A stretch of 64,000 nt of DNA from Opitutaceae bacterium (lineage in GTDB: Bacteria > Verrucomicrobiota > Verrucomicrobiia > Opitutales > Opitutaceae), in the NCBI GenBank assembly GCA_027482185.1, contig JAIXWF010000013.1, positions 868,001-932,000 of the forward strand, given 5' to 3'. The notes beneath the pieces are model-generated. The model was not told the DNA's origin. It did no database searches and saw only the letters and a list, made by a program, of their open reading frames with translations. Position numbers and translations under genes: made by a program. Positions 3,766-50,887 of this stretch are shown piece after piece. Numbering within the stretch: position 1 is the stretch's first letter; every line of letters starts with the position of its first letter.

Positions 3766-3856
3766 GCGATCAGCGATCAGCTGTCGGCGATCAGCAGTCT
3801 GCAATCAGCGATCAGCAGTCTGCAATCAGCGATCAGCAGTCAGCGTTCAGCGATCA
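3766..3856. repeat. heptamer array, 13 units of GCNNTCA
   Basis: Thirteen consecutive 7-bp units, all starting GC and with T at position 5 and C at position 6: GCGATCA six times, GCAGTCT twice, GCAATCA twice, and GCTGTCG, GCAGTCA and GCGTTCA once each. The register holds over 91 bp with no insertion or deletion. It lies between convergent genes. Confidence 0.9.
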
Positions 3857-3890
3857 ACCAATCGGGCAGCACCGGCGGGCGATTTCGGCG

Positions 3891-3925
3891 TTCAACCCCG
3901 AACCCCGAACCCCGAACTCCGAGCC
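3891..3925. repeat. heptamer array, five units of CCGAACY type
   Basis: Five 7-bp units (TTCAACC, CCGAACC, CCGAACC, CCGAACT, CCGAGCC) just before the end of the OmpR-type regulator gene and 34 bp after the GCNNTCA array. The CCGAAC core recurs in the long array at 19677-19816. Confidence 0.75.
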
Positions 3926-3937
3926 CACGGGCTCGCT

Positions 3938-4705
3938 TCAGCGGCCTTCCTTCGAAACGCCGCGCGGGTCGAAGATATAGCCGATGCCGTGCACCGTGCG
4001 GAACGCCGTGAGCTCGATGCCGTGGGCGGAAAACAGATCGCGCACCTTCACGATGTACTGGTCGAGGGAGCGGCTGCGCACGTCGGCGTGCAGGCCCCAC
4101 ACGGAATGGATGAGGGCCTTGCGCGTGATCACCTCGCCCTGGTGGGCGTTGAGGTAGGCGAGGATGCCGAGTTCCTTGCGGCCGATCTTCTGCACCTTGT
4201 CGCCGGGGAACGAAATCTCGAGCCGCACCGGCGTCACCTTCGCGCCGCAGAAATCGAAGGGCGCGTCGCTGACCTTCACGTTTTTCGTGACGTTCAGGTC
4301 GGTGTTCGATTCCGCGCGCCGCAGCACGGCCCGGATGCGCGCGACCAATTCGGCATAGCTGAACGGCTTCGTGACGTAGTCGTCGCCGCCGAGATCGAGG
4401 CCCTTGATCTTGCTCGTTTCCTCGACGTTGCCGGTGACGAAGATCACGGGGACGGAAATGTCGGCCGCTTTCAGCGATTCGATCAGCGCGAAGCCCGATT
4501 GGTCCGGGAGATTGACGTCGAGCAGGACGAGGTTGGCGAAATTGGCTTTGAGAAACTTGAACGCGTGGTTCGCGCGGTTGCAGACCTGCGTGTGCATCCC
4601 GGCTTTCTCGAGGTGGAGCGAAATCAGTTCCGCGAGTTCCTGTTCGTCCTCGACGATGACGATCAGGGGTTTCGGCTCCGAGCGGGTAGGGGTGGTGGTG
4701 GGCAT
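3938..4705 (-). CDS. OmpR-family response regulator
   Basis: 255 residues from the ATG at 4705. The open frame runs much further upstream, but the receiver domain begins 12 residues after this Met, so I start it there. The N-terminal receiver domain has the acidic pair (VEDEQE), the phosphorylatable Asp in LLDVNLPDQSG, the conserved Thr (FVTGN) and the Lys (VTKPF). The C-terminal winged-helix DNA-binding domain ends in the usual hairpin (FRTVHGIGYIF). No kinase gene is adjacent, so its partner sits elsewhere. It is divergent from hisG, and a strong sigma-70 type promoter lies just upstream. Confidence 0.9.
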   Translation of the reverse strand: MPTTTPTRSEPKPLIVIVEDEQELAELISLHLEKAGMHTQVCNRANHAFKFLKANFANLVLLDVNLPDQSGFALIESLKAADISVPVIFVTGNVEETSKIKGLDLGGDDYVTKPFSYAELVARIRAVLRRAESNTDLNVTKNVKVSDAPFDFCGAKVTPVRLEISFPGDKVQKIGRKELGILAYLNAHQGEVITRKALIHSVWGLHADVRSRSLDQYIVKVRDLFSAHGIELTAFRTVHGIGYIFDPRGVSKEGR

Positions 4706-4725
4706 GTGTCCGGGCTGCCCGGGGA

Positions 4726-4753
4726 TTTGTAAAAACGCCGGCGGGATTGTCAA
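4726..4753 (-). promoter_or_regulatory. sigma-70 type promoter of the OmpR-family regulator
   Basis: On the minus strand a perfect -35 box TTGACA (4753-4748) is followed after 16 bp by TACAAA (4731-4726). Transcription would start near 4719, giving a leader of about 14 bases before the ATG at 4705. It is among the best housekeeping-promoter matches in the window. Confidence 0.65.
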
Positions 4754-4867
4754 CTGCCGCGCCCCGGCGCACCCGGCTTCGCCTGCGTCCGTTCCGCGTC
4801 GCTTCGCCCGCGGCCCGCGCCGGGAAATAGGCTTGAAGGTGCCGGCGGCGGCGTGTGCTTTGGCGCC

Positions 4868-5752
4868 GTGTCCGCCAACGCACCACTGCTCATGCTCGGT
4901 CTGCCGAAAGGCAGCCTCGAGGAATCCACGAAGAACCTGTTCGCGAAGGCGGGCTGGAAGATCACGACGAGTTCGCGGAGCTACCGTCCCTCGATCGATG
5001 ATCCGGAGTTGGACGGCCGCTTTATCCGCGCCCAGGAAGTCAGCCGCTACGTCGAGCACGGCTTCTTCGACTGCGGCCTCACCGGCGAGGATTGGATCAA
5101 GGAAAACAACTCCGACGTCGTCGATGTCTGCGACCTGATCTACAGCAAGGCCTCGACCAAGAAATCCCGCTGGGTCCTCTGCGTGCCCGAGGCTTCGCCC
5201 GTCAAGACCGCCGCCGATCTCGCCGGCAAACGCGTCGCCACCGAGTTGATCAACACGACGAAGGCGTATTTCGAAAAGCAGGGCGTGAAGGTCGAGGTCG
5301 AGTTCTCCTGGGGCGCGACCGAGGTGAAGGTGCCCGATCTCGTCGACGCCATCGTCGACATCACGGAAACGGGTTCGTCCCTTCGCGCCAACAAGCTCCG
5401 CATCGTCGACACCCTCCTCGAGACGAACACCAAACTCATCGCCAACAAAGCCTCCTGGGCCAATCCGGCGAAGCGCAAAAAGATCGAGACGATCGCGCTG
5501 TTGTTGCGCGGCGCGCTCGAGGCCGAATCCAAGGTCGGCCTGAAGATGAATCTCCCGCGCACCGCCCTCGAAGGCATCGCGAAACAGCTGCCCGCCCTGC
5601 GCAACCCGACGATCTCGCAGCTGAGCAATCCGGACTGGATCGCTCTCGAAACGATCATCGACGAAAGTGTCGTCCGCGAAATCATTCCGCAGCTCAAGGC
5701 GCTCGGCGCCGAGGGCATCGTCGAATACCCGCTCAACAAGGTCGTCTACTGA
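4868..5752 (+). CDS. hisG: ATP phosphoribosyltransferase (long form)
   Basis: 294 residues from the GTG at 4868. GTG at 4853 and ATG at 4892 are alternatives; the conserved protein begins at [12 protein letters not shown]. It catalyses the first step of histidine biosynthesis, joining ATP and PRPP. The catalytic core carries the PRPP-binding segment ([14 protein letters not shown]). The C-terminal 75 residues ([12 protein letters not shown] to [15 protein letters not shown]) match the regulatory domain of the long HisG form, so no HisZ partner is expected and feedback by histidine is likely. No other his gene is adjacent. Confidence 0.93.
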
Positions 5753-5845
5753 GCCGCGCCGTCGCCGGACTTTCACGGCCGCTCCCGCCGGCGCGCTTGC
5801 CGCCCGCCGCCTTCACCCAATCGTAATTCCGTTTTTCCAATCGTC

Positions 5846-6724
5846 ATGCCCAAGATCACGCTCGGTCTCCTCCAGCACGCCTGCGGCCGCGATCCCGCCG
5901 CCAACCTCAAGAAGACGCTCGCGCTCGCCGAACAGGCCGCGAAGAAGGGCGCCAACATCATCTGCACGCAGGAGCTCTTCCGCTCGCAGTATTTCTGCCA
6001 GGCCGAGAACCACGACTACTTCAAACTCGCGGAACCGATCCCGGGCCCGAGCACGAAGGCGTTCCAGGCCCTCGCGAAAAAACACGGCGTGGTCGTGATC
6101 GCGTCGCTCTTCGAAAAACGCGCCTCCGGCCTCTACCACAACACCGCGGTCATCATCGACGCCGACGGCTCCCTCCTCGGCGTGTACCGCAAGATGCACA
6201 TCCCGGACGATCCGCTCTACTACGAGAAGTTCTACTTCACGCCGGGCGACACGGGCTTCAAGGCTTGGGACACGAAGTTCGGCAAGATCGGCGTCCTGAT
6301 CTGCTGGGACCAATGGTACCCCGAAGGCGCGCGCCTCACTGCCATGCAGGGCGCGGAAATCCTTTTCTATCCCACCGCGATCGGCTGGCACCCGAAGGAA
6401 AAAGCCGAGTACGGCACGAACCAGCACGGCGCCTGGGAAACGATCCAGCGCAGCCACGCCGTCGCCAATGGTTGCTACGTCGCCGCGATCAACCGCATCG
6501 GCACCGAGACGCCCGAAGGCGGCGACGGCATCGAGTTCTGGGGCCAGAGCTTCGTCGCCGGCACCAGCGGCCAGATCCTCGCCAAGGCCAGCGCCGACAA
6601 GGAAGAGGTCATGCTCGTCCCCATCGATCTGGAAAAAGTCGACGTCACGCGCACGCACTGGCCGTTCCTCCGCGACCGCCGGATCGACGCCTACGGCGAC
6701 CTGACGAAACGCTTCATCGATTGA
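5846..6724 (+). CDS. aguB: N-carbamoylputrescine amidohydrolase
   Basis: 292 residues, the usual family length. It is a nitrilase-superfamily hydrolase with the complete catalytic triad: Glu43 (CTQELF), Lys116 (YRKMHIPDD) and Cys153 (ICWDQWYPEGA). The motifs YHNTAV, YEKFYF and ANGCYVAAINR are those of plant and bacterial N-carbamoylputrescine amidases. It releases putrescine, CO2 and ammonia from N-carbamoylputrescine in the agmatine route. It lies two bases upstream of a DUF3088 gene that in turn overlaps aguA, so the three form one unit. Confidence 0.93.
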   Translation: MPKITLGLLQHACGRDPAANLKKTLALAEQAAKKGANIICTQELFRSQYFCQAENHDYFKLAEPIPGPSTKAFQALAKKHGVVVIASLFEKRASGLYHNTAVIIDADGSLLGVYRKMHIPDDPLYYEKFYFTPGDTGFKAWDTKFGKIGVLICWDQWYPEGARLTAMQGAEILFYPTAIGWHPKEKAEYGTNQHGAWETIQRSHAVANGCYVAAINRIGTETPEGGDGIEFWGQSFVAGTSGQILAKASADKEEVMLVPIDLEKVDVTRTHWPFLRDRRIDAYGDLTKRFID

Positions 6725-6726
6725 CG

Positions 6727-7083
6727 ATGGCCGCCCGCGACCAGCTCTTCCTCCTGCCGCCGCTGTTTCCCGATCCGCGCGCCGGCCAGGGGCCGTATCA
6801 CTGTCCCGAATGCCTCCAGGTCGAGGGCCTGCTCGCGTCGTTTCCGTTCCTGCGCGACCGCGTCGAGGTGCGCTACGTCGATTTCCCGCGGCCGCGGGCC
6901 GACGTCGTGGCCCTGATCGGCACGGAAAACCAAAGCTGCCCCGTGCTCGTCTTCGCCGGGGAGCCGCCGGCCGGTTTCGCCGCCGCGGGCCGCGCGACCA
7001 ACGGCCGCAGTTTCGCTTCCGGCTACGCCGCGATCGCGGCCGCCTTCGCCGCCGCGCACGGCACCTCGCTTCCCCATCCGTGA
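6727..7083 (+). CDS. DUF3088-like protein
   Basis: 118 residues from the ATG two bases after the aguB stop. It begins DQLFLLPPLFPDPRAGQGPY and has a CPEC motif at about residues 25-28, followed by hydrophobic strands. The layout resembles a thioredoxin/glutaredoxin-like fold with a CxxC pair, and matches what I know of DUF3088. Its function is not known. It sits inside the putrescine operon and its stop overlaps the GTG start of aguA (GTGA), so it is probably co-translated; a link to polyamine metabolism is inference. Confidence 0.7.
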   Translation: MAARDQLFLLPPLFPDPRAGQGPYHCPECLQVEGLLASFPFLRDRVEVRYVDFPRPRADVVALIGTENQSCPVLVFAGEPPAGFAAAGRATNGRSFASGYAAIAAAFAAAHGTSLPHP

Positions 7084-8132
7084 GCAAATCCGCCTCCGCC
7101 CCGTCCCCCGCCAAGCTCGGCTTCCGCATGCCCGCCGAGTGGGAGCCGCAGGTCGCGATCTGGCTGTCCTGGCCGCACAAATACGCGTCCTGGCCCGGCC
7201 AATTCCGCCCCGTGCCGTACACGTTCGCGAAGATCGTCGCCGCGATCTCGCGTTTCCAGGAAGTCCGGATCAACGCCGCGGCCCGCCTGCACGCCCGCGC
7301 GCGCCGGCTCTGCGCCGCCGCCGGCGCCGACTTGGCCAAGGTCACCTTCTACGACCATCCGACCAACGACGCGTGGTGCCGCGACCACGGCCCGATCTTC
7401 GTGAAGCACGACCGCACGGGCGAAGTCGCGCTGACCGACTGGCGCTACAACGCCTGGGGCGACAAATACCCGCCGTACGACCTCGACAACGAGATCCCGC
7501 CGAGCATCGGCCGGAAGCTCAAGTTGCGGCGTTTCGAGAGCGATATGGTCCTCGAGGGCGGCTCGATCGACGTCAACGGCCGCGGCCTCCTGCTCACGAG
7601 CGAGCAGTGCCTGCTGAACAAGAACCGCAATCCGCACCTCTCGCGCGAGCAGATCGAGGCCAACCTCCGCGCCGGCCTCGGCGTGAAGACGATCCTCTGG
7701 GTCGGCGACGGTATCCTGGGCGACGATACGGACGGCCACATCGACGACATCACCCGTTTCTACAAGGCCGACGGCTTCATCACCGCGGTCGAGCCCAACC
7801 GCCGCGATCCCAACCACCGCATTCTCGAGGAAAACCTCGAGCGCCTGCGCGGCTTCCGTACGCCGGCGGGGAAGAAATTCGAAATCGTAAAATTGCCGAT
7901 GCCCAAGCCGATGGCCTTCCAGGGCCAGCGCGTGCCGGCGAGCTATGCGAATTTCCTTATCATCAACGGCGCCGTGCTCGTGCCGACTTTCCGGCAGAAA
8001 CGCCGCGACGCCGAAGCCTGCGCCATCATCGGCGCGTGCTTCCCGGGCCGCGAAGTGATCCCGATCGACTGCTACCACCTGATCTGGGGCCTCGGCACGC
8101 TGCATTGCATCTCGCAGCAGCAGCCCGCCTGA
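7080..8132 (+). CDS. aguA: agmatine deiminase
   Basis: 350 residues from the GTG at 7080, which overlaps the upstream stop in a GTGA junction. It belongs to the guanidine-modifying peptidyl-arginine deiminase fold. Visible family motifs are MPAEWEPQ at the N-terminus, NDAWCRDHGPIF, LEGGSIDVNG, DGHIDDITRF, and the nucleophile Cys near residue 343 in GLGTLHCISQQQP. It converts agmatine to N-carbamoylputrescine, the substrate of AguB upstream. Together the two genes make putrescine without ornithine decarboxylase. No arginine decarboxylase gene is nearby. Confidence 0.93.
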   Translation: MSKSASAPSPAKLGFRMPAEWEPQVAIWLSWPHKYASWPGQFRPVPYTFAKIVAAISRFQEVRINAAARLHARARRLCAAAGADLAKVTFYDHPTNDAWCRDHGPIFVKHDRTGEVALTDWRYNAWGDKYPPYDLDNEIPPSIGRKLKLRRFESDMVLEGGSIDVNGRGLLLTSEQCLLNKNRNPHLSREQIEANLRAGLGVKTILWVGDGILGDDTDGHIDDITRFYKADGFITAVEPNRRDPNHRILEENLERLRGFRTPAGKKFEIVKLPMPKPMAFQGQRVPASYANFLIINGAVLVPTFRQKRRDAEACAIIGACFPGREVIPIDCYHLIWGLGTLHCISQQQPA

Positions 8133-8166
8133 ACCTCCCGGCCCCGGGCCGGTCCGACTCCGCACC

Positions 8167-8631
8167 ATGCGCTTTTTCCAACTTCTGCTCGGGCTCGGGT
8201 TTGCGGCCGCCACCGCCGGTTGCGATTCGATGCCGACGCGGGTGGGCGAGCGCTTCGCCGCGCCGCAGCCCAAACTGCAAGTCTTCCAGGGCTCGGCCAA
8301 CGCGACCTTCGCCGCGGCCCAGGCCGCGTTGCGCCGCCTTGATTTCACGCTCACGACCTCGGCCCTGGCCCAAGGCAAGATCGAGGCGCGGAGCCGCATC
8401 ATTCCCGGCGATTCGCTGGGCGGGGCGCGGCAGTTCACGTTTTCCCTGCAGTTGTCCGGCCCGGCCGAAGGCCCGACGGAAGTCGCTGCCATTCTTAAAG
8501 AAGGCACGGAAGGCGACTTCCGCGCCGGCCCCACCGCCGCCGCCCTGCGCGAGCACGGCCTCTATGCGGCGCTCTTCGCCGGCGTTGAAGCCGCCTTGAA
8601 GGATGGCGCAGGGGCGCCGAGCGCCCGTTGA
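8167..8631 (+). CDS. small lipoprotein of unknown function
   Basis: 154 residues. The N-terminus is a lipoprotein signal: MRFFQLLLGLGFAAATAGC, with the lipidation Cys at residue 19. The mature part has a mixed alpha/beta pattern (VFQGSANATFAAAQAALRRLDF) similar in layout to other small verrucomicrobial lipoproteins, but I cannot name a family. It lies 34 bp after aguA. Its TGA stop (8629-8631) falls within the first unit of a heptamer repeat array, so the array supplies the end of the gene. Confidence 0.7.
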   Translation: MRFFQLLLGLGFAAATAGCDSMPTRVGERFAAPQPKLQVFQGSANATFAAAQAALRRLDFTLTTSALAQGKIEARSRIIPGDSLGGARQFTFSLQLSGPAEGPTEVAAILKEGTEGDFRAGPTAAALREHGLYAALFAGVEAALKDGAGAPSAR

Positions 8632-8717
8632 AGGGTGAAGGTTGAAAGTTGAAAGACCGGAAGCGCGTCCGCGCCGCTTCGTTCCTTCTCTCAACTCTCA
8701 GCTCTCAACTCTCAACT
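8627..8717. repeat. inverted pair of heptamer arrays (GTTGAAA / CTCAACT)
   Basis: Left arm: GTTGAAG, GGTGAAG, GTTGAAA, GTTGAAA (8627-8654). Right arm, in complementary orientation: CTCAACT, CTCAGCT, CTCAACT, CTCAACT (8690-8717). The gap between the arms is 35 bp, five units, so both arms sit in one 7-bp register. The arms can pair with a few mismatches. The first unit contains the TGA stop of the lipoprotein gene. Confidence 0.85.
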
Positions 8718-8948
8718 GCGGCAGCGGCCGCAGCCGCCGCCTGCCCCAACTTCGGGCTTGCGACGCTCCGTCGCGCTGGCGAGCCTGACCGTTCGCGGCA
8801 GTCAGTCGGTCGGGTTGGCGTCACGCCGCGAGCTCCCGCCAATCCCCCAACGTCAGTGCAACCTTCAACCAATCCGGTCCCGTTCACGCGGGGCCGACCC
8901 GTCGGAAGGTCGTCCCTGGAGCAGGCGGCCGGCCGGCGTATTCCGCAT
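8718..8948 (+). other. rpsA leader region
   Basis: This is the remaining 231 bp before rpsA. It holds no gene that I can support. A hairpin built on GCGACG-CTC-CGTCGC with an outer GGCTTGC/GCGAGCC stem lies near 8755-8785. The region may hold the rpsA promoter and a 5' leader through which S1 could control its own synthesis (known in gammaproteobacteria); I see no clear -35/-10 pair. Confidence 0.35.
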
Positions 8949-10619
<1,671 letters not shown>

Positions 10620-10653
10620 GCCTTCGCGGACCGAATCCGGTCTCAGTTTCGAG

Positions 10654-10689
10654 CCGCCCGTCCCGCTTTGCGGGGCGGGCGGTTTTTTT
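10654..10689 (+). terminator. rho-independent terminator of rpsA
   Basis: A 12-13 bp GC stem (CCGCCCGTCCCGC with CGGGGCGGGCGG) with a TTTG loop is followed by seven T residues at 10683-10689. It starts 35 bp after the rpsA stop and is the clearest intrinsic terminator in the window. Confidence 0.92.
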
Positions 10690-10722
10690 GCGGGCGGGCG
10701 CGGAGGACAGGCCCGGAGAAGA

Positions 10723-10800
10723 ATAGGACTTATGGGACAGATAGGACGGATGGGACGATATGGGTCCTATCCGTCCCATCCGTCCTATGGGTCCTATCTC
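10723..10800. repeat. palindromic nonamer array (ATRGGACNN / TCCYATNNN)
   Basis: Four 9-bp units ATAGGACTT, ATGGGACAG, ATAGGACGG, ATGGGACGA (10723-10758), a 6-bp centre, then four units in the opposite orientation: TCCTATCCG, TCCCATCCG, TCCTATGGG, TCCTATCTC (10765-10800). Read on either strand the motif is NNATRGGAC. The whole element can fold into one long imperfect hairpin. It lies between the rpsA terminator and the end of purA. Confidence 0.9.
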
Positions 10801-10821
10801 CGGCCTTCCGGCCCGATCCGC

Positions 10822-12366
<1,545 letters not shown>

Positions 12367-12479
12367 GGGTTGCGGGTGAAACGCGCAACCGGGTCGCCCC
12401 TGTTGCCGTGAAGTCAAAACGCGACGCGCCGGGTCAGGGCAAACAAAAACACGGCGTCATGACGCGGCGGCGAAAAAGC

Positions 12480-12561
12480 GGGAAATTGGAAAAGCGGAAA
12501 ATGGGAAAATCGGGAAAGCGGGAAACGGCGGAAGATTGGAAAATCGGGAAATTGGAAAAAT
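12480..12561. repeat. octamer array, GGRAAANN
   Basis: Units of 8 bp: GGGAAATT, GGAAAAGC, GGAAAATG, GGAAAATC, GGGAAAGC, GGGAAACG, then one irregular 10-bp unit, then GGAAAATC, GGGAAATT, GGAAAAAT. It lies just beyond the end of the DTW gene, in the purA upstream gap. It has the same architecture as the heptamer arrays elsewhere but a longer unit. Confidence 0.88.
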
Positions 12562-12579
12562 GAAATTGGCCGGCGGCGT

Positions 12580-13323: not shown

Positions 13324-13325
13324 GC

Positions 13326-13553
13326 TCAGGTGCCCGTGAGCTTCCAGCGCACGTAGATGTCCTCGACCTTGGCGCGGGCCCACGGCGTTTTGCGCAGGAA
13401 CACGAGGCTCGATTTGACGCTGGGATCGAATTGGAAGCAGCGGATCGGCACGCGGTCCGCCAGTTTCTCCCAGCCGAATTCGGCCACGAGCTCGGTCAGC
13501 AGGCGTTCGAGCGTGACGCCGTGGAGCGGGTCGTTGGGGCGGGGCGCGTTCAC
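13326..13553 (-). CDS. VF530 family (DUF2132) DNA-binding protein
   Basis: 75 residues from the GTG at 13553, which overlaps the stop of the upstream ThuA-like gene (GTGA). The sequence [17 protein letters not shown], then [14 protein letters not shown] and [16 protein letters not shown], is the hallmark of the VF530/DUF2132 family, whose known structure is a small helical double-stranded DNA-binding fold. Its cellular role is not established. It is sandwiched between a ThuA-like gene and a tRNA modification gene with no obvious functional link. Confidence 0.85.
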
Positions 13554-15481: not shown

Positions 15482-15502
15482 CCGCGCGCAGCGGACGCCG
15501 GC

Positions 15503-17489: not shown

Positions 17490-17616
17490 AACCACTGATA
17501 GGCACTTATGGACGCTGATGCTGGGGAATGGAGGGGAATTCAGACGAGACCTGATGCCGCGTCTTGATTCCCGGCAATTCCTTCGGATCAGTGTCCATCA
17601 GTGGCAATCAGTGGTT
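17490..17616. repeat. inverted decamer element (CACTGAT repeats)
   Basis: Left arm 17490-17519 consists of three 10-bp units, AACCACTGAT, AGGCACTTAT and GGACGCTGAT. The right arm 17587-17616 is its inverted copy (units ATCAGTGTCC, ATCAGTGGCA, ATCAGTGGTT); 26 of 30 positions pair. The 67-bp spacer holds a second, inner imperfect stem (GAATTCAGACG with CGTCTTGATTC). The whole 127 bp can form one long two-part hairpin between two convergent genes. Confidence 0.9.
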
Positions 17617-19676: not shown

Positions 19677-19816
19677 GTTGAAAGCTGAAAGTTGAAAGGT
19701 GAAAGCCCGGAGCGCCTAGCGGTCGGCGTTCAGCTTTCAGCGGTCAGTACTCAGCTGACGGCCACAACTCCGAACTCCGAACTCCGAACTCCGAACTCCG
19801 AACCCCAAACTCCGAA
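19677..19816. repeat. 20-unit heptamer array with three motifs in one register
   Basis: Exactly 20 units of 7 bp. Units 1-4 are G[TCG]TGAAA (GTTGAAA, GCTGAAA, GTTGAAA, GGTGAAA). Units 5-7 are transitional (GCCCGGA, GCGCCTA, GCGGTCG). Units 8-11 are GCGTTCA, GCTTTCA, GCGGTCA, GTACTCA. Units 12-13 are GCTGACG and GCCACAA. Units 14-20 are CTCCGAA five times, CCCCAAA, CTCCGAA. The register never slips although the motif changes twice. Units 1-4 and 8-11 are roughly complementary and can pair. Confidence 0.92.
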
Positions 19817-19825
19817 CTCGATTTG

Positions 19826-26788: not shown

Positions 26789-26809
26789 GTTGGGCGTTGA
26801 AAGTTGGGG
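26789..26809. repeat. short heptamer array (GTTGGGC, GTTGAAA, GTTGGGG)
   Basis: Three 7-bp units between hemF and hemE with the GTTGAAA core seen at 8627, 19677, 30831 and 34912. It is too short to be sure on its own; the shared core and the intergenic position support it. Confidence 0.5.
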
Positions 26810-30830: not shown

Positions 30831-30938
30831 GCTGAATGTTGAAAGACGGAAGTTGAAGGAACGGAACTGAACCGCGCGGCGGCCGGCGCGAGTTTACGTC
30901 CGACCTCCGGCTTTCAACTTTCAACCTTCAACTTTCAA
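30831..30938. repeat. inverted pair of heptamer arrays (GTTGAAA / CTTTCAA)
   Basis: Left arm 30831-30872: GCTGAAT, GTTGAAA, GACGGAA, GTTGAAG, GAACGGA, ACTGAAC. Right arm 30911-30938: CTTTCAA, CTTTCAA, CCTTCAA, CTTTCAA. The right arm is the better preserved and is complementary to the left. It lies between convergent genes, directly after the hairpin at 30804. Confidence 0.85.
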
Positions 30939-30975
30939 CTGCGGCGCGGGCGGCGCCCCGCGCCGCCAGCGCCGC

Positions 30976-34902: not shown

Positions 34903-34911
34903 GGTGGGGGA

Positions 34912-34932
34912 GTTGAAGGTTGAAAGTCGAAA
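34912..34932. repeat. short heptamer array (GTTGAAG, GTTGAAA, GTCGAAA)
   Basis: Three 7-bp units between proS and clpS. The core equals that of the arrays at 8627, 19677 and 30831; no facing arm is visible. Confidence 0.65.
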
Positions 34933-34999
34933 GATCGCAGCGAAGGCGGCGGCGCTCATTTCTCGAGCGACGCCGTTCTCCCGCCCGGCTCCCGATATT

Positions 35000-35828: not shown

Positions 35829-35840
35829 GGGGCGGGGAAC

Positions 35841-35938
35841 TGTAAGCGCTAAGCTGCAAGCTGTAAGCCCTAAGCCGAAAGCCCCAAGCGATAAACCGTA
35901 AGCGGTATGCTTCAGGCCGATGGCTGAATGCTGAACGC
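35841..35938. repeat. heptamer array, 14 units of NNNAAGC type
   Basis: Fourteen 7-bp units in strict register: TGTAAGC, GCTAAGC, TGCAAGC, TGTAAGC, CCTAAGC, CGAAAGC, CCCAAGC, GATAAAC, CGTAAGC, GGTATGC, TTCAGGC, CGATGGC, TGAATGC, TGAACGC. Every unit but one ends GC. The last two are reverse complements of the GCNNTCA motif at 3766 and 19728. It begins 13 bp after a stop codon and ends 70 bp before the 6S RNA promoter. Confidence 0.9.
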
Positions 35939-36042: not shown

Positions 36043-36223
36043 GACACCCTGCAGTGTTCGAGGTGCTTACAATAACTGCTCTTTGCCTTAGGAAAATTAC
36101 GGGAGCCAAATCCGGCGCGAATGATGTCAGGCCGTAAACCGGAAGACAGAGCGCGCGTCGGCGGCGCCCACCTTAACTAAAAAAGGTCTTGAGCCTTTGG
36201 GCATACGGCACAGGCGGGGTGTC
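36043..36223 (+). ncRNA. ssrS: 6S RNA
   Basis: 181 nt, near the usual 6S length of about 184. The 5' end GACACCCTGCAGTGTTCG pairs with the 3' end through GACACCC and GGGTGTC, with CTG opposite CAGG further in. This is the typical 6S closing stem, and the TGTTCG box is conserved at the same place in proteobacterial 6S. On the 3' side CACCTTAACTAAAAAAGGTC, then TTGAGCCTTTGGGC and TACGGCACAGGCGGGG, parallels the E. coli 6S 3' strand. The middle would form the open bulge that mimics a melted promoter and holds housekeeping RNA polymerase in stationary phase. It lies in a 494-bp gap. Confidence 0.82.
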
Positions 36224-36238
36224 ACTCTTTCCTTTCTC

Positions 36239-42687: not shown

Positions 42688-42840
42688 GAGGCGGAGACGG
42701 GTTCCGGAGCGGCCCGCAGTGGGACGACGCGGGACTGCCACAACGTTGGCGGTGCCGCCACGGTGCACGAGTCGCCGGTGACGAACGACGAGAAAATGTG
42801 ACGGGCTACGCAGCCCCCGGGCCGGAGGCGGCGCCGGGAA

Positions 42841-43572: not shown

Positions 43573-43580
43573 CGTGGGGT

Positions 43581-45047
43581 TCAGGCGAAGAGTTTGTGCA
43601 GCACGTGGCCGTGGACGTCGGTGAGGCGGAAGTCGCGGCCCTGGAAGCGGAACGTGAGCTTCGTGTGCTCGATGCCGAGGGCGTGGAGCAAAGTGGCGTG
43701 GATGTCGTGGACGTGGAACGGATCGGCGACGGCGTTGAAGCCGAGTTCGTCGGTCTCGCCGATGGTCACGCCGGCCTTGGTGCCGCCGCCGGCGAACCAC
43801 ATCGTGAAGGCGTCGATGTGGTGGTTGCGCCCGGTGGTGTCGCGGTTTTCGCCCATCGGAGTGCGGCCGAATTCGCCGCCCCAGACGACGAGCGTGTCCT
43901 TGAGCAGCCCGCGGTCCTTCAAATCCTGCACGAGGGCGGCCTGGCCCTGGTCGACCTCGCGGCAGACCTTTTCGAAATCGCCCTGGAGGTTTTCGCCGGG
44001 GCCGCCGTGGCTGTCCCAGTTGGTGTGATACAACTGCACGAAACGCACGCCGCGTTCGACGAGGCGGCGGGCGAGGAGGCAATTGCGGCCGAAGGACGGC
44101 GTGTTTTTCTCGATGCCGTAAAGGTTGAGCGTCGCCGCGGATTCCTTGCTCAGGTCGATGAGGTCGGGGGCGCTGGCCTGCATGCGGCAGGCCATCTCGT
44201 AGGCGGCGATGCGGGTGTGGATCTCGGCATCGCCGGTGGCGACGGCGCGCTTCAGATTGAGATCGCGGATGGCGTCGACGGTCTGCCGCTGGCGTTCCAC
44301 CGTGATGCCGGCGGGGCTGGAAAGATTGAGGATCGGGTCGCCGCCGCCGCGGAGGGGCACGCCCTGGTAGGTGGTGGGCAGAAAGCCGGAGCCCCAGTTG
44401 ACGGCGCCGCCGCGGGGGCCGCGGGGGCCGGATTGCAGGACGACGAAACCGGGCAGGTCCTGGCATTCGCTGCCGAGGCCGTAGTTGACCCAGGAGCCCA
44501 TGCTCGGGCGGCCGAATTGGCCGGAGCCGGTGTTCATGAACAGCTTCGCCGGCGCGTGGTTGAAGAGCGTCGCCTGGCACGACTTCACGATCGAGATGTC
44601 GTCGACGATCTTGGCGGTGTGCGGGAAGAGATCCGAGACCCAGGCGCCGCTGCGGCCGTGCCGTTTGAATTCGCGGCGCGTGCCGAGGAGCTTCGTGCCG
44701 TGGCTCGAATCCATGAACGCGAAGCGCTTGCCGGCGATGAGCGAATCGGGGACGGCCTGGCCGTTGAGATCGATGAGCTTCGGCTTGTAGTCGAAGAGCT
44801 CGAGCTGGCTCGGGCCGCCGGCCATGAAGAGAAAGATGACGTTCTTCGCCTTGGGGGCGAATTGCGGCGGCTTGGGCGCGAGCGGATTGGCGAGCGGGGC
44901 GTCGGCGGCCGCGGCGGCGCGGAGCGGGGACTTGCCGAGCAGCGAGGCGAGCGCGATGCCGCCGAGGCCGAGTCCGCAGCGGCTGAAGAAATGGCGGCGC
45001 GTCTGGCGGCAGAGATCTTCGGGGGGATTGCCGGGGAGCATGGTCAT
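43581..45047 (-). CDS. DUF1501 secreted sulfatase-like protein
   Basis: 488 residues from the ATG at 45047, overlapping the upstream stop (ATGA). A Tat-like signal (TRRHFFSRCGLGLGGIALASLLG) is followed by the DUF1501 fold, an alkaline-phosphatase/sulfatase superfamily relative: NVIFLFMAGGPSQLELFDYKP, YHTNWDSHGG, VVWGGEFGRTP, HHIDAFTMWFAGGG. There is no sulfatase Cys-x-Pro-x-Arg motif. DUF1501 proteins are paired with PSD1 cytochromes across Planctomycetes and Verrucomicrobia and are suspected to act in polysaccharide use, without biochemical proof. Confidence 0.92.
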   Translation of the reverse strand: MTMLPGNPPEDLCRQTRRHFFSRCGLGLGGIALASLLGKSPLRAAAAADAPLANPLAPKPPQFAPKAKNVIFLFMAGGPSQLELFDYKPKLIDLNGQAVPDSLIAGKRFAFMDSSHGTKLLGTRREFKRHGRSGAWVSDLFPHTAKIVDDISIVKSCQATLFNHAPAKLFMNTGSGQFGRPSMGSWVNYGLGSECQDLPGFVVLQSGPRGPRGGAVNWGSGFLPTTYQGVPLRGGGDPILNLSSPAGITVERQRQTVDAIRDLNLKRAVATGDAEIHTRIAAYEMACRMQASAPDLIDLSKESAATLNLYGIEKNTPSFGRNCLLARRLVERGVRFVQLYHTNWDSHGGPGENLQGDFEKVCREVDQGQAALVQDLKDRGLLKDTLVVWGGEFGRTPMGENRDTTGRNHHIDAFTMWFAGGGTKAGVTIGETDELGFNAVADPFHVHDIHATLLHALGIEHTKLTFRFQGRDFRLTDVHGHVLHKLFA

Positions 45048-47500
45048 TCGCGCGTGATGGTTTCGTCGAGGTTGAGGAGGACGCGGGCCACGATGAGCCA
45101 GGCGGCGTCCTGCCGGGCGGCTTCGTCGCCGGCGGCGGCGGCGTGCTGTTGGCGGTAGAGGTCGGCGAGGCGGGCACGCTCGGCCGGCTCGGGGGCGCGG
45201 GCGAGGCAGAGGCGGAACCCGTGGTCGAGCTGGGCCTCGAGGCCGGCCGGCACCTCGGCGCGGACGCGTTTGGCCAGGGCGCCCGCGAACTCGAAGAACT
45301 GCGCGTCGTTCAGGAGCGTGAGGGCCTGGAGCGGGGTGTTGGAGCGAAGGCGGCGGGTGCAGGCGCTGAAGCCGTCGGGGCCGTCGAAGACGGCGAGGGC
45401 GGGGTGGGGCGTCGCGCGCCAGAGATGCGTGTACAGGCCGCGCCGATACCGGTCGTCGCCGGTGCTGGGGCGCCAGTCGCGTTTCACCTGGCCGAGATTC
45501 ATGACGCCGTCGGGCTGCGGCGGATACACGGGCGGGCCGCCGAGCTTGGGCACCAGCAGGCCGCTGGCGGCGAGGGCGACGTCGCGGACGATCTCGGCGT
45601 CGAGACGGAGGCGGGCCTGGCGGGAAAGGTATTTGTTGATCGGATCCTTGAGCTCGAGTTCGGGCCGCGCGCGGGACGATTGCCGGTAGGTGGCCGAAGT
45701 GACGATGAGACGGTGCATCGCCTTCTGGCTCCAGCCGCGGGCGACGAACTCGGTCGCGAGCCAGTCGAGCAACTCCGGGTGCGTGGGTGCCTCGCCCTGG
45801 GTGCCGAAATCGTTTTCGGTTTCGACGAGGCCGCGGCCGAAGTACTGCTGCCAGATCCGGTTGATCGCCACGCGCGCGGTGAGCGGGTGGGCGGGGTCCA
45901 TCGTCCAGCGGGCGAGGTCGAGGCGGTTGGGTTTTTCTGCGCGCAGGGGCGGCAGGACGGCGGGGGTGCCCGGGGCAACGGTTTCGCCGCGGCGGGTGAA
46001 GTCGCCTTTGATAAAGAGGAAACTTTCGCGCGGGGCGGGCAGCTCGGACATCACGAGGGTGGAAACGGGCTTGGCCTCGTTGCGCTCGAGGCGCGTGAGC
46101 TGGGCGTTGCGGTTTTTGAAGTCGGCGGTGGCGCCGGGGAAGGCGGCGTAGAGGGCGCGCTTGTGGCGGAGGGACAGTTGCTCCCAGGGTTCGCCGAGGG
46201 CCTCGCGGGCGGTGGCGCCGAGTTTGTTTTTCTCGTGCTGGTGGAGGCCGGCGGCCCAGGCGGTGACGGCGGCGCCGTGGGTATTGAGGAAGCGCTCGAG
46301 TTCGGCGCGCGTTTCCTCGATTTCGCGTTGGCGGGCGTCGGGCGGGGGCAATTCGCCGCGAAAATCCAAGGTGCCGCCGGGGTTCGATTTGCCGTGGCCG
46401 TCGTCGACGGTGTTGTTGAAGAACGCGTAGAGCCGGTAGTATTCCTTCTGGGTGATCGGGTCGAACTTGTGGTCGTGGCATTGCGCGCACGAGACGGTGA
46501 GGCCGAGGAAGGCGGTGCCGTAGGTGTTGACGCGGTCGAGGACGCTCTCGATGCGGAATTGCTCCGGATCGATGCCGCCCTCCTGGTTGATCTGGGTGTT
46601 GCGGTTGAAGCCGGTGGCGACGCGCTGGTCGACGGTGGGCGCGGGCAGGAGGTCGCCGGCGAGTTGCTCGATCACGAATTGGTCGAAGGGCAGATCGCGG
46701 TTGAGCGCGGCGACGACCCAGTCGCGGTATTTCCAGATCTGGCGCGGGGCATCGATGCTGTAGCCGTTGGAATCGCCGTAGCGCGCGAGGTCGAGCCAAG
46801 GACGGGCCCAGCGTTCGCCGTAGTGCGGCGAAGCGAGCAGGCGGTCGACGGCGCGTTCGTAGCCGCCGGGGGAACGGTCGGCGAGAAAGGCGGCCGTTTC
46901 GGACGGCGTCGGCGGCAGACCCGTGAGGTCGAGGCTGGCGCGGCGGAGGAGGGTGATCGGATCGGCCTCCGGGGCGGGGGCGACGCCGTCCTGCGCGAGG
47001 CGCGCGACGATGAAGCGGTCGATGGGATTGCGGATCGCGGATTGCGAATTGCTGATTTCCGGAGGGGTGGGGCGTTGCGGCGGGACGAAGGCCCAATGGA
47101 CGAAGACGCCGGGCTCTTCCTTTTCCGGGGCAGGGGCGCCGGCGAGGACCCAGGCGCGGAGCTTGGCGATTTCATCGGCGCCGAGGGGCGGCCGCTTGTA
47201 GGGCATCTGCGGAATGTCCTCGTGCGGGCCGGCGATGATCTTGAGCAGGAGGCTTTGGTCGCGGGCGCCGGCCTTGACGAGGGGGCCGCTGTCGCCGCCG
47301 ACCAAAATGGCTTCGGCGGTATCCATGCGCAGGCCGGCTTCCTGTTTCGCGGCGCCGTGGCAGCGGACGCAGTGCTGGGTGACGATGGGTTTGACGTCGC
47401 GGGTGTAGTCGACCGGCGCGGCGGTCGCGGCGGAAACGGCGGGACCAACCAAGAGAGAGACCAGTGCGGCGAGGGGGACCGGCAAAATCCTGCGGGGCAT
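45044..47500 (-). CDS. PSD1/DUF1549/DUF1553 planctomycete-type cytochrome
   Basis: 818 residues from the ATG at 47500. A signal peptide ends near AATAAP; the planctomycete cytochrome C (PSC1) module has one heme site CVRCH (VTQHCVRCHGAAKQE). DUF1549 follows (about 160-370, with DRFIVARLAQDG and RYGDSNGYSIDAPR), then DUF1553 at the C-terminus (HPLTARVAINRIWQQYFGRGLV, LDWLATEFV, FDGPDGFSACTRR). These large secreted cytochromes occur with DUF1501 partners and are thought to pass electrons during periplasmic oxidation of sugars. It opens the three-gene minus-strand operon. Confidence 0.92.
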   Translation of the reverse strand: MPRRILPVPLAALVSLLVGPAVSAATAAPVDYTRDVKPIVTQHCVRCHGAAKQEAGLRMDTAEAILVGGDSGPLVKAGARDQSLLLKIIAGPHEDIPQMPYKRPPLGADEIAKLRAWVLAGAPAPEKEEPGVFVHWAFVPPQRPTPPEISNSQSAIRNPIDRFIVARLAQDGVAPAPEADPITLLRRASLDLTGLPPTPSETAAFLADRSPGGYERAVDRLLASPHYGERWARPWLDLARYGDSNGYSIDAPRQIWKYRDWVVAALNRDLPFDQFVIEQLAGDLLPAPTVDQRVATGFNRNTQINQEGGIDPEQFRIESVLDRVNTYGTAFLGLTVSCAQCHDHKFDPITQKEYYRLYAFFNNTVDDGHGKSNPGGTLDFRGELPPPDARQREIEETRAELERFLNTHGAAVTAWAAGLHQHEKNKLGATAREALGEPWEQLSLRHKRALYAAFPGATADFKNRNAQLTRLERNEAKPVSTLVMSELPAPRESFLFIKGDFTRRGETVAPGTPAVLPPLRAEKPNRLDLARWTMDPAHPLTARVAINRIWQQYFGRGLVETENDFGTQGEAPTHPELLDWLATEFVARGWSQKAMHRLIVTSATYRQSSRARPELELKDPINKYLSRQARLRLDAEIVRDVALAASGLLVPKLGGPPVYPPQPDGVMNLGQVKRDWRPSTGDDRYRRGLYTHLWRATPHPALAVFDGPDGFSACTRRLRSNTPLQALTLLNDAQFFEFAGALAKRVRAEVPAGLEAQLDHGFRLCLARAPEPAERARLADLYRQQHAAAAGDEAARQDAAWLIVARVLLNLDETITRE

Positions 47501-47895
47501 CGTCGCGACCAAAACAGGAGCCCCGGCAAAACGGCAGGAAAAAATCGCGGTTTGCCCGCACTCGCCGCGATTCGCTTCCGGTGAACGGCGACACGGACCA
47601 GATCGGGCGGGGCAGCGTGGTCGGCCGGCGGACCAAGGCCGGTGCCGCGGCGGTTTTCCTGCCTGCATCGCGGTCCGGTCTAAAGTTTTGCGCGAGTGGC
47701 GCGATAATCGGCGTGGAAGCCATGTATTTGCGTCCACCATACCGACTTTCCCTCCTTCGCGCCGATGCCTCCGCAAAGCGTGCCGGGACGGGTCCGCGTG
47801 CCGGTTGGCGCGGCGGCGGTGCGCCGGCGGCTTCCGCAACGCCCGATTGCGACTGAGGCGCACCAAGTTTCCCACCCACCGTCCCCGTAGTTCCC
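47501..47895. other. 395-bp divergent intergenic region
   Basis: This is the gap between the divergent PSD1 and chemoreceptor genes. It holds a sigma-28-like promoter for the chemoreceptor (47681-47707) and then about 180 bp of untranslated leader. I see no small open frame with coding character and no heptamer array. A promoter for the PSD1 operon must also lie here but I cannot mark one. Confidence 0.5.
47681..47707 (+). promoter_or_regulatory. sigma-28 (FliA) type promoter of the chemoreceptor gene
   Basis: TAAAGTTT (47681-47688, eight of eight consensus bases), an 11-bp spacer of the required length, then CGCGATAA (47700-47707, six of eight against GCCGATAA). FliA promoters drive late flagellar and chemotaxis genes, and the next gene downstream is a methyl-accepting chemotaxis protein, so position and function agree. 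Confidence 0.75.
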
Positions 47896-49953
47896 ATGCG
47901 TTCCCCGAATATCAAGCGCAGTCTCCAGACCCAGATTCTCATCGCCATTGTCGCGGCGGGAGCGATTCCCGCCCTGCTGGTGGGATATGCCGCCTATCGC
48001 AGCAGCTCGTACCTTTCCGAAGCGCTGAACGAAAAGCTGCACGCCACCGTGGTGGATCTGAACGACAAGATCGAACGCAACTTCTTCGAGCGCTACGGCG
48101 ACGTCCAAGCCTTCGGCCTGAACGAGGTCGTGCACGACCGCGCCTCCTGGTACCAGATCGGCAGTTCCAAAAACCGCATCGCGGCCGCCGCCAACGCCTA
48201 CGGGCAGCTCTACGGCATCTATCCGCTGATGCTGCTCGTCGATCTCGACGGCAAGGTGATCGCGGTGAACGACCGCGACGCCGCCGGCAAGCCCGTTGAG
48301 ACCGCGTGGCTCTACGAAAAGAATTTCCGCTCCGCGCCCTGGTTCCAGCCGACGCTCGCCGGCAAGTTCCTCAAATCCGACGTGCTCGACGGCACCTACG
48401 TGACCGACGCGCATCTCGATCCCGATGTGAAACGCATCACCGGTGCGCACGGCATGGTCGTCGGCTTTTCGGCGCCCGTGAAGGACCGCGACGGCAAGAC
48501 GGTCGCGCTGTGGTACAACGCCGCGGATTTCCGCGTCATCGAAACGATCCTGCGCGAAACGTATGAATCGCTCGCGCACGACGATCTGGGCGACGCCGAA
48601 ATCACGGTCGTCAACCGGGACGGGTTGGTGATCGCCGACTTCGATCCGACCGTGCTGGGCGCCAAGGCCATGAACTTCGACCCGCAGGTCGTGCTCAGCC
48701 GGAACCTCGTCACGGCCGGCAACGCGATGGCCGTTGAGGCGCTCGCGGGCAAGCAGGGCGTGAAGGCCGACTTCAATCCGATCAAGAATCTGAAACAATT
48801 CGGCGGCTACGTCGGCAGCAAGGGCGCGCTCGGCTACCCGGGACTGGGGTGGGGCGTCATGATCCGGGTGAGCGAGGAGACCGCCAACGGCGAACTGCGC
48901 GGCCAGCTCCGCATGCTGGTCGCGATTCTCGTCGCCAGCCTTGGGATGCTGGCGCTCGGCGCCTGGTGGCTGGCGCGCTCGTTGGCCCTTCCTTTGGTAC
49001 GCAGCCTCGACGAGGTGCGGGCGACCGGCGGTTCCGTTGCCGCGATCGCCGCCCAGACCACCGCTTCCAGCGTCACCCTGGCCGACAGCGCATCGGAACA
49101 GGCCGCGTCGCTCGAAGAAACTTCGGCCTCCATCGAGGAACTCAGCAGCATGACGCGGCTGAACGCGGAGAGCGCGCAGAAGGCCCGCCAGGCGGCCCTC
49201 GAAACGCGGCAGTGCGCCGACGCGGGTGCCGAGCAGATGAAATCCATGCAGTCCGCGATGGATGTGATCGCGGCCGCGAGCCAGGACATCACCAAGATCC
49301 TCAAGACGATCGACGAGATCGCGTTCCAGACCAACATTCTCGCGCTGAACGCCGCCGTGGAAGCGGCCCGCGCCGGCGAGGCCGGCGCCGGCTTCGCGGT
49401 CGTGGCCGAGGAAGTCCGTGCCCTCGCGCAACGCAGCGCGGCGGCGGCCCGCGAGACGGCGGAGAAGATCGAGGGCTCGACCTCGCGCAGCGAGGAAGGC
49501 GCGCGGCTGAGCACGCAGGTCGCCGGCAGTTTCCAGCAGATTCAGGACAAGGTCCGCGACCTCGAGCGGCTCATCACCGAGATCGCCAACGCGAGCCGCG
49601 AACAGAGCGAGGGCATCGCGCAGGTGAATCTGGCCGTCACGCAGATGGACCAGGTGACGCAGGCCAACGCGGCCACCGCGGAAGAAGGGGCCGCCAGCGC
49701 GGAAGAACTGCAGGCTTCGGCGATCGAGCTGGCCGAGCAGGTGGCGAAGGCGATGCAGCACATCGGCGGCCGCCGGGCCAACGATGCGCAGGGCCAGGGC
49801 GGCAAGCCGCTGCCGGGCGGCAAACGCCGGCAGGACCCTCCGGCCGGCGAGAAGCCGGCTCCGGCCCGCGCCCCCAAGGGCAAAGCGGGCATCGTGAAAC
49901 ATTCCGCGGCGACCATCCATGACGCCTCCGCGCCGACTGCTGCTCATCGATGA
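47896..49953 (+). CDS. methyl-accepting chemotaxis protein
   Basis: 685 residues. The first membrane helix (about 10-32) is followed by a 300-residue periplasmic sensor that looks like a double Cache domain ([37 protein letters not shown]), a second helix (about 338-360), only a vestigial HAMP, and a long cytoplasmic coiled coil. The signalling tip is [21 protein letters not shown] followed by [16 protein letters not shown]. The C-terminal 60 residues are basic and Pro/Ala-rich. It signals through CheW/CheA, which are not in this window. Its end overlaps the GGDEF gene by 35 bp. Confidence 0.93.
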
Positions 49954-50848
49954 CGAACGGCTGCAGCACCGGCTCGTGGGCCAGATGCTGCGCCAGTTTC
50001 GCGGGGCGCATTTCGAGCTCGAAGTCGCGTCGAATTGCCGGGAAGGGCTCGAACAGCTGCGGACCGGCCGCCATGCCGCGGCGTTGCTCGACTACCGCCT
50101 GACCGACGGCGACGGACTCTCGCTCCTCGCCGAGGCCCGCGCGTCCGGCTGCCGGACCCCGGTCATTTTCCTCACCGCCAACACCGGCGACGATCTCGAC
50201 ATGGCGGCGCTCGAGGCCGGGGCCGTCGATTATCTCGAGAAGGCCGCGCTGTCGCCCAAGGTGCTGGAACGTGCCCTGCGTTACGCGTTGCGCCTTTCGG
50301 AGACGCTGGAGCAATTGCGCCAGCTCGCGACCCGCGACCAACTCACCGGTCTGTTGAATCGCCGCGAATTCGACCGCATCCTCGGCGACGAACTCAACCG
50401 CAGCCGCCGTTTCGGCCGGTCGTTGGCGCTCGCCCTGATCGACATCGACCATTTCAAAAAAGTGAACGACACGCACGGCCACCCCGCGGGCGACGCCGTG
50501 CTGCAACACGTGGCCGGCATCGTCGCGGCGCAGGCGCGCAACGTCGACTTCGTCGCCCGCTACGGCGGCGAGGAGATGGCCGTGATCATGATCGAATCCA
50601 CGGCAGGCGCGGCGCGCGTCGCGATGCAGCGGACGGCCGCCTACCTCGCGCTCACGCCCTGCCGGATCGGCGAGCTGGTCCTGCCCGTCACGTTCAGTGC
50701 CGGCGTGGCTTCGGTGCCCGACGACGGCGATTCGTCCGCCGGGCTGATCGCGGCGGCGGACCAGGCGCTCTATGCGGCGAAGCGGACCGGGCGGAATCGC
50801 GTGTGCTCGGCCCAGGAGGCGCAGTTGGCGCAGGCGGTCGCGGTCTGA
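49919..50848 (+). CDS. response regulator diguanylate cyclase (REC-GGDEF)
   Basis: 309 residues. The receiver domain ([10 protein letters not shown], phosphorylated Asp in [13 protein letters not shown], Lys in YLEKAA) is joined by a helix to a GGDEF domain. The active site is GGEEM in [11 protein letters not shown], an accepted active variant. The product-inhibition site RxxD is present as RNVD, five residues before GGEEM. It makes cyclic di-GMP, so this pair couples a chemoreceptor to c-di-GMP. The 35-bp overlap with the chemoreceptor gene puts both under the sigma-28-like promoter. The arrangement recalls the Wsp surface-sensing system, though no wspE-like kinase is here. Confidence 0.92.
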
Positions 50849-50859
50849 GGCCGGGCGGA

Positions 50860-50887
50860 GTTGAACGTCGAAAGCGGAACGGTGAAA
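50860..50887. repeat. short heptamer array (GTTGAAC, GTCGAAA, GCGGAAC, GGTGAAA)
   Basis: Four 7-bp units in the gap between the convergent GGDEF and ffh genes. The facing side (50920-50955) is only loosely repetitive (CTCAACT, CACCTCG, CTTGGCT, CGGCTTG), so a second arm is uncertain. Confidence 0.65.

Follow-up and report, generated by a model that had tools for sequence, protein, structure and literature searches.

Intergenic arrays of short tandem words at gene ends in an Opitutaceae genome: a mixture of possible inverted-repeat arms and open-ended repeats

Arrays in the window

We analyzed 64,000 nucleotides of the genome of an Opitutaceae bacterium (GenBank assembly GCA_027482185.1, contig JAIXWF010000013.1, positions 868,001 to 932,000 of the forward strand; hereafter, the window), in which intergenic arrays of short tandem words, mostly of period 7, recur at many places. 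These arrays are far commoner than chance, lie mainly at the 3' ends of genes, and are not one family: arms with a near-fixed number of words, which may belong to small dispersed inverted-repeat elements, are mixed with unpaired arrays, of which two classes are open-ended.

Arrays were detected by Tandem Repeats Finder (TRF) and autocorrelation, with an autocorrelation score of 10 as the census cutoff. The census covered C3:1-1600000 of the genome of the window (G000; C3 is one of its contigs), about 25% of 6.43 Mb, and the chance level was taken from five order-3 Markov controls. Final gene calls were Pfam seeded and were used for the gap-type, syntenic-count, and stop-codon figures. Column profiles, gap similarity, and hand-made syntenic comparisons used an earlier gene set, with many wrong strands, as borders or anchors, and syntenic gap counts were repeated with the corrected genes. 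A relative of the same genus, G006, served for comparison. The features of the window are as follows.

3763..3856, plus strand: TCAGCNN heptad array of 13.4 units, unpaired, in a convergent gap (TRF, autocorrelation; G006 ortholog with altered spacers)
3894..3926, plus strand: AACCCCG/AACTCCG array of the open-ended class (TRF)
8627..8655, plus strand: GTTGAAR arm, left of a facing pair (TRF, autocorrelation; kept in G006)
8688..8717, minus strand: GTTGAGR arm, right of the facing pair, CTCTCAA on the plus strand (TRF, autocorrelation)
10723..10760, plus strand: period-9 RGGACNNAT arm, left (TRF, as period 18)
10764..10798, minus strand: period-9 arm, right, facing (TRF, autocorrelation)
12474..12559, plus strand: period-8 GGRAAANN array, open-ended, adjoining the stop of a DTW-domain gene (TRF, autocorrelation)
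17493..17522, plus strand: period-10 CACTGATNNN arm, degenerate, left (by eye, not by TRF; clearer in G006)
17587..17614, minus strand: period-10 arm, right, facing, ATCAGTGNNN on the plus strand (TRF, autocorrelation)
19677..19705, plus strand: GTTGAAA arm of four words, with G at word column 6 of all four in G006 (TRF, autocorrelation)
19717..19757, plus strand: TCAGCNN arm, flanked by the GTTGAAA arm and the AACTCCG array (TRF)
19766..19819, plus strand: AACTCCG array of 7.7 units, open-ended class (TRF, autocorrelation)
30838..30866, plus strand: degenerate GTTGAAR arm, left (TRF)
30911..30940, minus strand: GTTGAAR arm, right, facing, CTTTCAA on the plus strand (TRF, autocorrelation)
34911..34933, plus strand: GTTGAAR arm of about three words (TRF)
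35840..35907, plus strand: TAAGCNN array upstream of 6S RNA (TRF, autocorrelation)
50860..50887, plus strand: decayed GTTGAAR arm, G006 counterpart intact (comparison with G006)

Autocorrelation placed noncoding period-7 arrays of the window at 3763, 3894, 8629, 8688, 19679, 19766, 30911, and 35851, and arrays of periods 8, 9, and 10 at 12488, 10764, and 17587, respectively. Twelve places had been named in the initial annotation, and nine of them (3766, 3891, 8627, 10723, 12480, 19677, 30831, 34912, and 35841) carry an array or a clear arm by one program or the other; at 30831, the left arm is degenerate and the right arm (30911-30940) clear, and the array at 34912, with 3.3 copies and a TRF score of 32, falls under the census cutoff. 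At 17490, both programs missed the left arm and the right one (17587-17614) was detected, and 50860 is under threshold in the window, its counterpart being intact in G006. The place at 26789 lacks support; it has two GTTG words only and no TRF row. Besides, a GCGGATT-type heptad array that the initial annotation had missed lies at 47025-47057, inside a called minus-strand gene (45044-47500).

By the gene list, all six convergent gaps of at least 40 bp in the window contain one of the named places; five pass the census threshold, and the sixth holds the decayed arm at 50860. Some gap sequences match one another outside the arrays when the earlier gene set is taken as borders. At the gathering threshold, 6S RNA (36043-36224; 51.9 bits against a gathering cutoff of 46.4) was the only Rfam model matched in the window; it lies downstream of the TAAGCNN array, and none of the arrays matched an Rfam model at this threshold. 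The gene at 2561-3715, with TSP_3 repeats and, at its C terminus, a series of period-9 repeats, ends just before the TCAGCNN array.

Frequency of the arrays

Noncoding period-7 arrays numbered 127 in the census, versus a mean of 0.6 in the Markov controls, and are thus commoner than chance. The noncoding excess was smaller at periods 8 (13 versus 1.4), 9 (24 versus 0.6), and 10 (11 versus 0.2), and periods 4, 5, 6, 11, 12, and 13 gave 1 to 5 arrays each; the period-14 row counted the period-7 arrays again. A further 26 period-7 arrays lie inside called genes.

Words and unit numbers

Nine heptamers cover 120 of the 127 period-7 arrays at one mismatch or fewer, which bears out the reuse of motifs between loci; the nine words were chosen from the same contig, and about 13% of random heptamers would match likewise. 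The earlier statement that the motif drifts was half right, as variation is confined to class-specific columns: by column profiles made with the earlier gene mask, TCAGCNN has two nearly free columns and GTTGARR has two purine columns. Whole word strings recur weakly in C3 (three-word GTTGARR strings, 32 versus 12.3 shuffled, maximum 33). No four-word TCAGCNN string recurs there, and the best-recurring three-word strings of this class consist of TCAACTT-type words, which are members of the GTTGA class.

The number of words per arm, counted in arms of at least three words, is near-fixed in four classes. Four-word arms make up 51/70 of the GTTGARR arms in G000 and 37/48 in G006, 21/25 and 10/15 of the CCGGARA arms, and 10/11 and 7/11 of the GCGGATT arms, and all 27 period-10 CACTGATNNN arms have three words. 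AACTCCR arrays, in contrast, run from 3 to 15 words and period-8 GGRAAANN arrays from 3 to 14, and none of either class faces a partner. An open-ended unit number was thus seen in AACTCCR and GGRAAANN, not in the GTTGARR, CCGGARA, GCGGATT, and CACTGAT arms. The arrays are therefore not one family but comprise near-fixed-number arms and unpaired arrays, of which the AACTCCG and GGAAANN ones are open-ended. CAAAACN arrays are unpaired but have only 3 to 5 words, and may have arisen by slippage or in another way. AACTCCG arrays were also observed at contig starts in G000 (C1 and C18) and G006 (C69 and C105), and long arrays of this kind may break assemblies.

The printed explanation for heptamer repeats, growth of long simple sequence repeats by polymerase slippage with a preferred 7-nucleotide step, fits the AACTCCG and period-8 arrays, whose unit number is open and which do not face each other. 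Period 7 dominates here, as reported for other genomes (PMC4679880, citing Mrazek 2007, as far as the consulted part of that paper goes), AACTCCR arrays reach 15 units, and some contigs begin in AACTCCG arrays. As an account of the arrays as a whole, however, slippage is quite unlikely: slippage of local sequence would neither reuse nine words at unlinked loci nor stop at four units, it would not fix the polarity of pairs, and the results for the sharp classes already speak against it. Among the matches listed from other organisms, 45 of 82 TCAGCNN arrays have a single spacer throughout, as slippage would give, and 23 have three or more; adjacent TCAGC spacers nevertheless match each other only slightly more often (0.18 identical) than spacers of one array that are not neighbors (0.15; 0.10 at random).

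Pairing and polarity

Close pairs of arms were facing in 45 cases, back-to-back in 8 (P = 2e-7), and on the same strand in 15 at the looser spacing, and facing in 42 and back-to-back in 9 at the stricter spacing. The inverted pairs of the initial annotation are thus present, with a defined polarity. Loops between facing arms are unrelated and 1 to 159 bp long, and 9 of 14 period-10 pairs are 111 to 113 bp long. At C3:52897-56260 in G000, period-10 elements, each about 112 bp long, are clustered, and the syntenic G006 gap is shorter (405 and 253 bp). Arm-to-arm copying by quasipalindrome template switching was considered as a source of spacer change and rejected, as arms of one locus showed no excess sharing of spacers (0.19 versus 0.32 in shuffled loci; P = 0.96, seven pairs).

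Position at gene ends

Arrays were found in 54 of 127 convergent, 57 of 467 tandem, and 5 of 161 divergent gaps of the census (convergent versus divergent, Fisher 2e-17). The corresponding counts were 49/89, 43/237, and 2/121 for gaps of 100 to 400 bp and 31/72, 36/245, and 9/93 for G006. The bias to convergent gaps is thereby confirmed in both genomes, and the transcript-end location that the initial annotation had considered is strongly supported. This 3'-end location with rarity between divergent genes is also a property of repetitive extragenic palindromic (REP) elements and REPINs. Within convergent gaps, arms are sense to the nearest gene in 33/34 (GTTGARR), 15/15 (CCGGARA), 12/14 (TCAGCNN), and 10/13 (RGGACNNAT) cases, an orientation that the facing polarity already predicts for paired arms. 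Facing does not explain the orientation of the unpaired AACTCCR and CAAAACN arrays, which are antisense to the nearest or upstream gene in 30 of 33.

This position raises the question of selected 3'-end RNA or DNA elements, that is, a bidirectional hairpin that ends or stabilizes convergent transcripts or a Rho-dependent stop of antisense transcription. The near absence of arrays from divergent gaps and the single orientation of the AACTCCR and CAAAACN arrays would suit such elements, and in several classes, judged by eye, the strand antisense to the nearest gene is rich in C and poor in G, as a Rho site would be. Nevertheless, the same bias would follow if insertions were tolerated at the ends of genes but damaging in promoters, as in the 150-bp family described below; the loops are unrelated and vary widely in length; and in G006, divergent gaps hold arrays only a little less often than tandem ones. 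We consider this explanation possible but rather unlikely.

Comparison with congeners

G000 and G006 were compared over 191 genes with a mean identity of 88.6%. Among 82 syntenic gaps of at least 40 bp, arrays occurred in both genomes in 14, in one in 9, and in neither in 59; the same three counts were 3, 4, and 35 for tandem, 9, 3, and 6 for convergent, and 2, 2, and 18 for divergent gaps. All six window array gaps compared (after 3715, 8631, 12366, 17466, 19658, and 50848) have arrays in G006. Seven hand-chosen orthologous arrays with spacers, in an alignment maximizing identity, agree at 183 of 203 core positions and 40 of 70 spacer positions (from 2/10 to 8/8 per array), with 20 of 55 unit columns unpaired. 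Flanks agree at 0.85 to 0.87, and over the whole array identity is the same as outside it (0.854 in both), so that the spacer positions alone stand out. At 19677, by eye, the same column differs between the two genomes in all four words. In six further congeners, this gap has other words in two and no words in four (12 loci, of which four reverse-lying ones were left out). At one mismatch, GTTGARR triplets number 0 to 402 per genome across 27 genomes of the genus and are missing from 8 of them; the reversed control for these counts is not independent, since these arrays also match the pattern when it is reversed.

The retention of arrays in convergent gaps and the higher identity of cores than of spacers would again be expected of selected 3'-end elements, but the 8 genomes that lack a GTTGARR triplet speak against them. 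Another conceivable function is the binding of a nucleoid-type protein resembling IHF or HU, as proposed for the paired repeats of Geobacter metallireducens in the consulted part of the genome account (PMC2700814), whose anatomy is similar; an arm of about 28 to 36 bp would suit a defined footprint. Against this, congeners carry different words at the same gap, and the 150-bp family behaves as a mobile element; we consider binding arrays a possible but quite unlikely explanation.

The 150-bp GTTGARR family

An element of 150 bp armed with GTTGARR words was found in 41 copies that also match its core, 33 of them 149 to 151 bp long. The constant short length and the terminal inverted repeats (consensus of 25 loci) are those of a miniature inverted-repeat transposable element (MITE). 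Identical 3-bp flanks occur in 19 of 41 copies (shuffled mean, 9.0; maximum, 17 in 5000) and TNA on both sides in 21 of 41, so that target-site duplication, a further mark of MITEs, is present as well. Furthermore, of the 16 copies in C3, 14 have their end no more than 3 bp away from a stop codon (0.026 at random), the copy at C3:842871 is absent at the syntenic place in G006, and a 28-bp word string of the arm was counted 27 times in G006 and 15 in G000 at no more than one mismatch. The family is thus MITE-like, dispersed, with target duplications, and placed at stop codons. It has no copy in the window, where the inner end of the GTTGAAA arms is often another one, ACCGG. Because the arrays mix two kinds or more, and because one of the GTTGARR families resembles a MITE, the idea of one window-wide family had to be abandoned.

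Search for a maker gene

No gene tied to the words emerged from searches of G000 and the genus by transposase family and RAYT-flank word. G000 has one RAYT-like Y1 gene (NCBIfam REP_Tyr_transpos, 61.4 bits, below the cutoff of 80), flanked by CCGGAAT dyads, which differ at one position from the CCGGAAA class (a closeness to an array word that 13% of random heptamers would share). Triplets of CCGGAAT were detected in 7 of the 27 genomes searched in the genus and number 3 in G000; those of TTACCTT, a RAYT-flank word of a congener (G022), were detected in none of the 27. Most RAYT-like Y1 genes of the genus (L330-L350 and L280) are flanked by inverted repeats of differing words, often GGGGTCA followed by two tandem heptads. 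Among 22 transposase loci, three repeated the word of another (L333, L336, and L337) and two were without a long inverted repeat (L345 and L349); of the 17 inverted repeats remaining, L342, L280, and L350 were dropped before the periodicity test, and the 14 others gave z = 5.9 at period 7 and -1.0 to 0.3 elsewhere. None of 15 occurrences of GGGGTCA in gaps was near an array, and the number of Y1 transposases did not correspond to that of arrays across the genus. Single RAYT genes can serve many REPs.

Spread beyond the genus

Quadruplets of TCAGCNN at one mismatch were found in 21 of 145 genomes of the phylum, in 16 of 81 genera, and the reversed control in 8 of 145; one of these 8 (G101) matched 41 times, so that other words of such shape exist. 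Period-10 triplets at two mismatches occurred in 25 of 145 genomes and 22 of 81 genera, with none in the reversed control. A scan of GTDB species for TCAGCNN gave at least 116 stretches, of which 80 were analyzed. Among the matches listed, arms with at least three spacers faced a partner in 12 of 34 cases and others in 3 of 49 (Fisher, 0.001), and TCAGC loci were facing in 13 cases and back-to-back in 2 (P = 0.007). TCAGC arms with variable spacers, again among the matches listed, face each other in eight phyla, which we take to be Acidobacteria, KSB1, Cyanobacteria, Deltaproteobacteria/Myxococcales, Verrucomicrobia, Chloroflexi, Planctomycetes, and Nitrospirae. In a locus from Myxococcales (L213, 1295-1557), a facing GGCCACR heptad pair was seen by eye nested within a facing TCAGC pair.

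Origin of the arrays

We propose that the arrays that are not open-ended are arms of small dispersed inverted-repeat elements, REP or MITE-like, at the 3' ends of transcription units, and we put the probability of this at about one half. An arm of about 28 to 36 bp would consist of a core word (GTTGA, TCAGC, CCGGA, GGAC..AT, or CACTGAT) repeated three or four times with free spacer bases, and an element of two arms facing across an unrelated loop or of one arm alone, single arms presumably being the remains of pairs. The core words would be read in trans by a candidate transposase or a host factor, and the other families would have moved in the same way as the 150-bp GTTGARR family. Gene ends may be reached because insertion is tolerated there, and spacers may change because selection acts on the core alone. 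The AACTCCG and period-8 arrays would form a second kind, growing by slippage. The proposal draws on the shared words, the near-fixed unit number of four classes, the polarity of close pairs, and the gene-end bias, as well as on the dispersal and target duplications of the 150-bp family, the similar lengths of most period-10 pairs, the uneven GTTGARR counts among congeners, and the likeness of some gaps outside their arrays.

Several observations weigh against this proposal. The 42 facing pairs take in only 84 of 367 arms (about a quarter; the 367 are those of the unit-count classes without the overlapping TNAGCNN row). With at least three words required on both sides, there are 28 facing pairs among 226 arms in G000 and 14 among 141 in G006, and most arms have no partner at this threshold. 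Unit number is less sharp in TCAGCNN (G000: three words in 8 arms, four in 12, and five to six in 3; G006: three in 5, four in 2, and five in 1) and in RGGACNNAT, whose arms have 3 to 6 words. CACTGAT arms in convergent gaps are sense in 7 and antisense in 5 of 12 cases, and GCGGATT departs from gene-end placement, with 5 of 11 arms in called genes. The 150-bp family, absent from the window, is the only one in which target duplications emerged, and none stood out in the 14 pairs of the period-10 family; the empty site at C3:842871 is inexact, since its right flank aligns poorly. Any movement in the window must be old, as all six gaps compared there are shared by position with G006. No transposase accounts for the spread: PF01797 has one hit, PF01609 none, and PF13340 one in G000. 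Nevertheless, mobile inverted-repeat elements at gene ends would account for most of the pattern, and such elements might also act on transcripts.

More tentatively, and with the odds against it, these arrays might exemplify a widespread word-array class extending across bacterial phyla. Its arms, with a near-fixed number of core words, would face each other where genes end; a reader acting in trans would preserve the core while spacers outpaced the neighboring noncoding DNA, and words would drift into species dialects. On this reading, the recurrence of TCAGC with variable spacers, in one facing polarity, in eight phyla would point to an old shared recognition system or to repeated transfer.

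Comparison with known systems

REP/BIME elements and REPINs are short, often paired, intergenic sequences at 3' ends and are served by RAYT transposases. The present arrays resemble them in that period-7 inverted repeats flank RAYT-like genes in this genus, but the arms of the arrays are tandem words, not single palindromes, and triplets of the two RAYT-flank words searched for are few or missing across the genus. MITEs have inverted repeats around a short core, and the arms of eukaryotic foldback elements also consist of short tandem units; here, however, target duplication is seen in one family and no partner transposase was found in the searches above.

A limited literature search found no published account of such arrays in Verrucomicrobia. 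The kind is already known in pieces. In Geobacter metallireducens (Aklujkar 2009, PMC2700814), 3 to 5 tandem 7- to 9-mers per site are paired on opposite strands at variable distance in many copies, and one Geobacter repeat set is said there to resemble multicopy sequences of many other genomes. The anatomy is alike, whereas the words differ and the sites are termed regulator sites; gap-type bias, orthologous comparison, and target duplication are given here and were not met in the consulted part of that account. The GGGAATC or (GGGANTN)n heptamer repeats of Xanthomonas, described as G-quadruplex forming in the part consulted (Rehm 2015, PMC4692102), share the tandem-word anatomy, but words such as GTTGAAA and CACTGAT lack runs of G. 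TAACTGA repeats of Beggiatoaceae, Cyanobacteria, and Bacteroidetes (MacGregor 2015, PMC4679880) are likewise one intergenic heptamer across distant lineages, with the vehicle not known; in the main species they lie mostly just upstream of start codons, according to the portion consulted, whereas the present arrays are rare in divergent gaps.

Bacterial intergenic heptamer repeats have so far been noted lineage by lineage and explained as slippage products, G-quadruplexes, or regulator sites, and the combination of near-fixed word number, polarity, divergent-gap rarity, and spacer change was not met in the consulted parts of the above accounts. Near-fixed word number, polarity, gene-end bias, and the word-and-spacer pattern set one kind apart from plain slippage repeats. 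Such signatures can be tested across phyla, and, if a reader of the words exists, co-occurrence could now find it.

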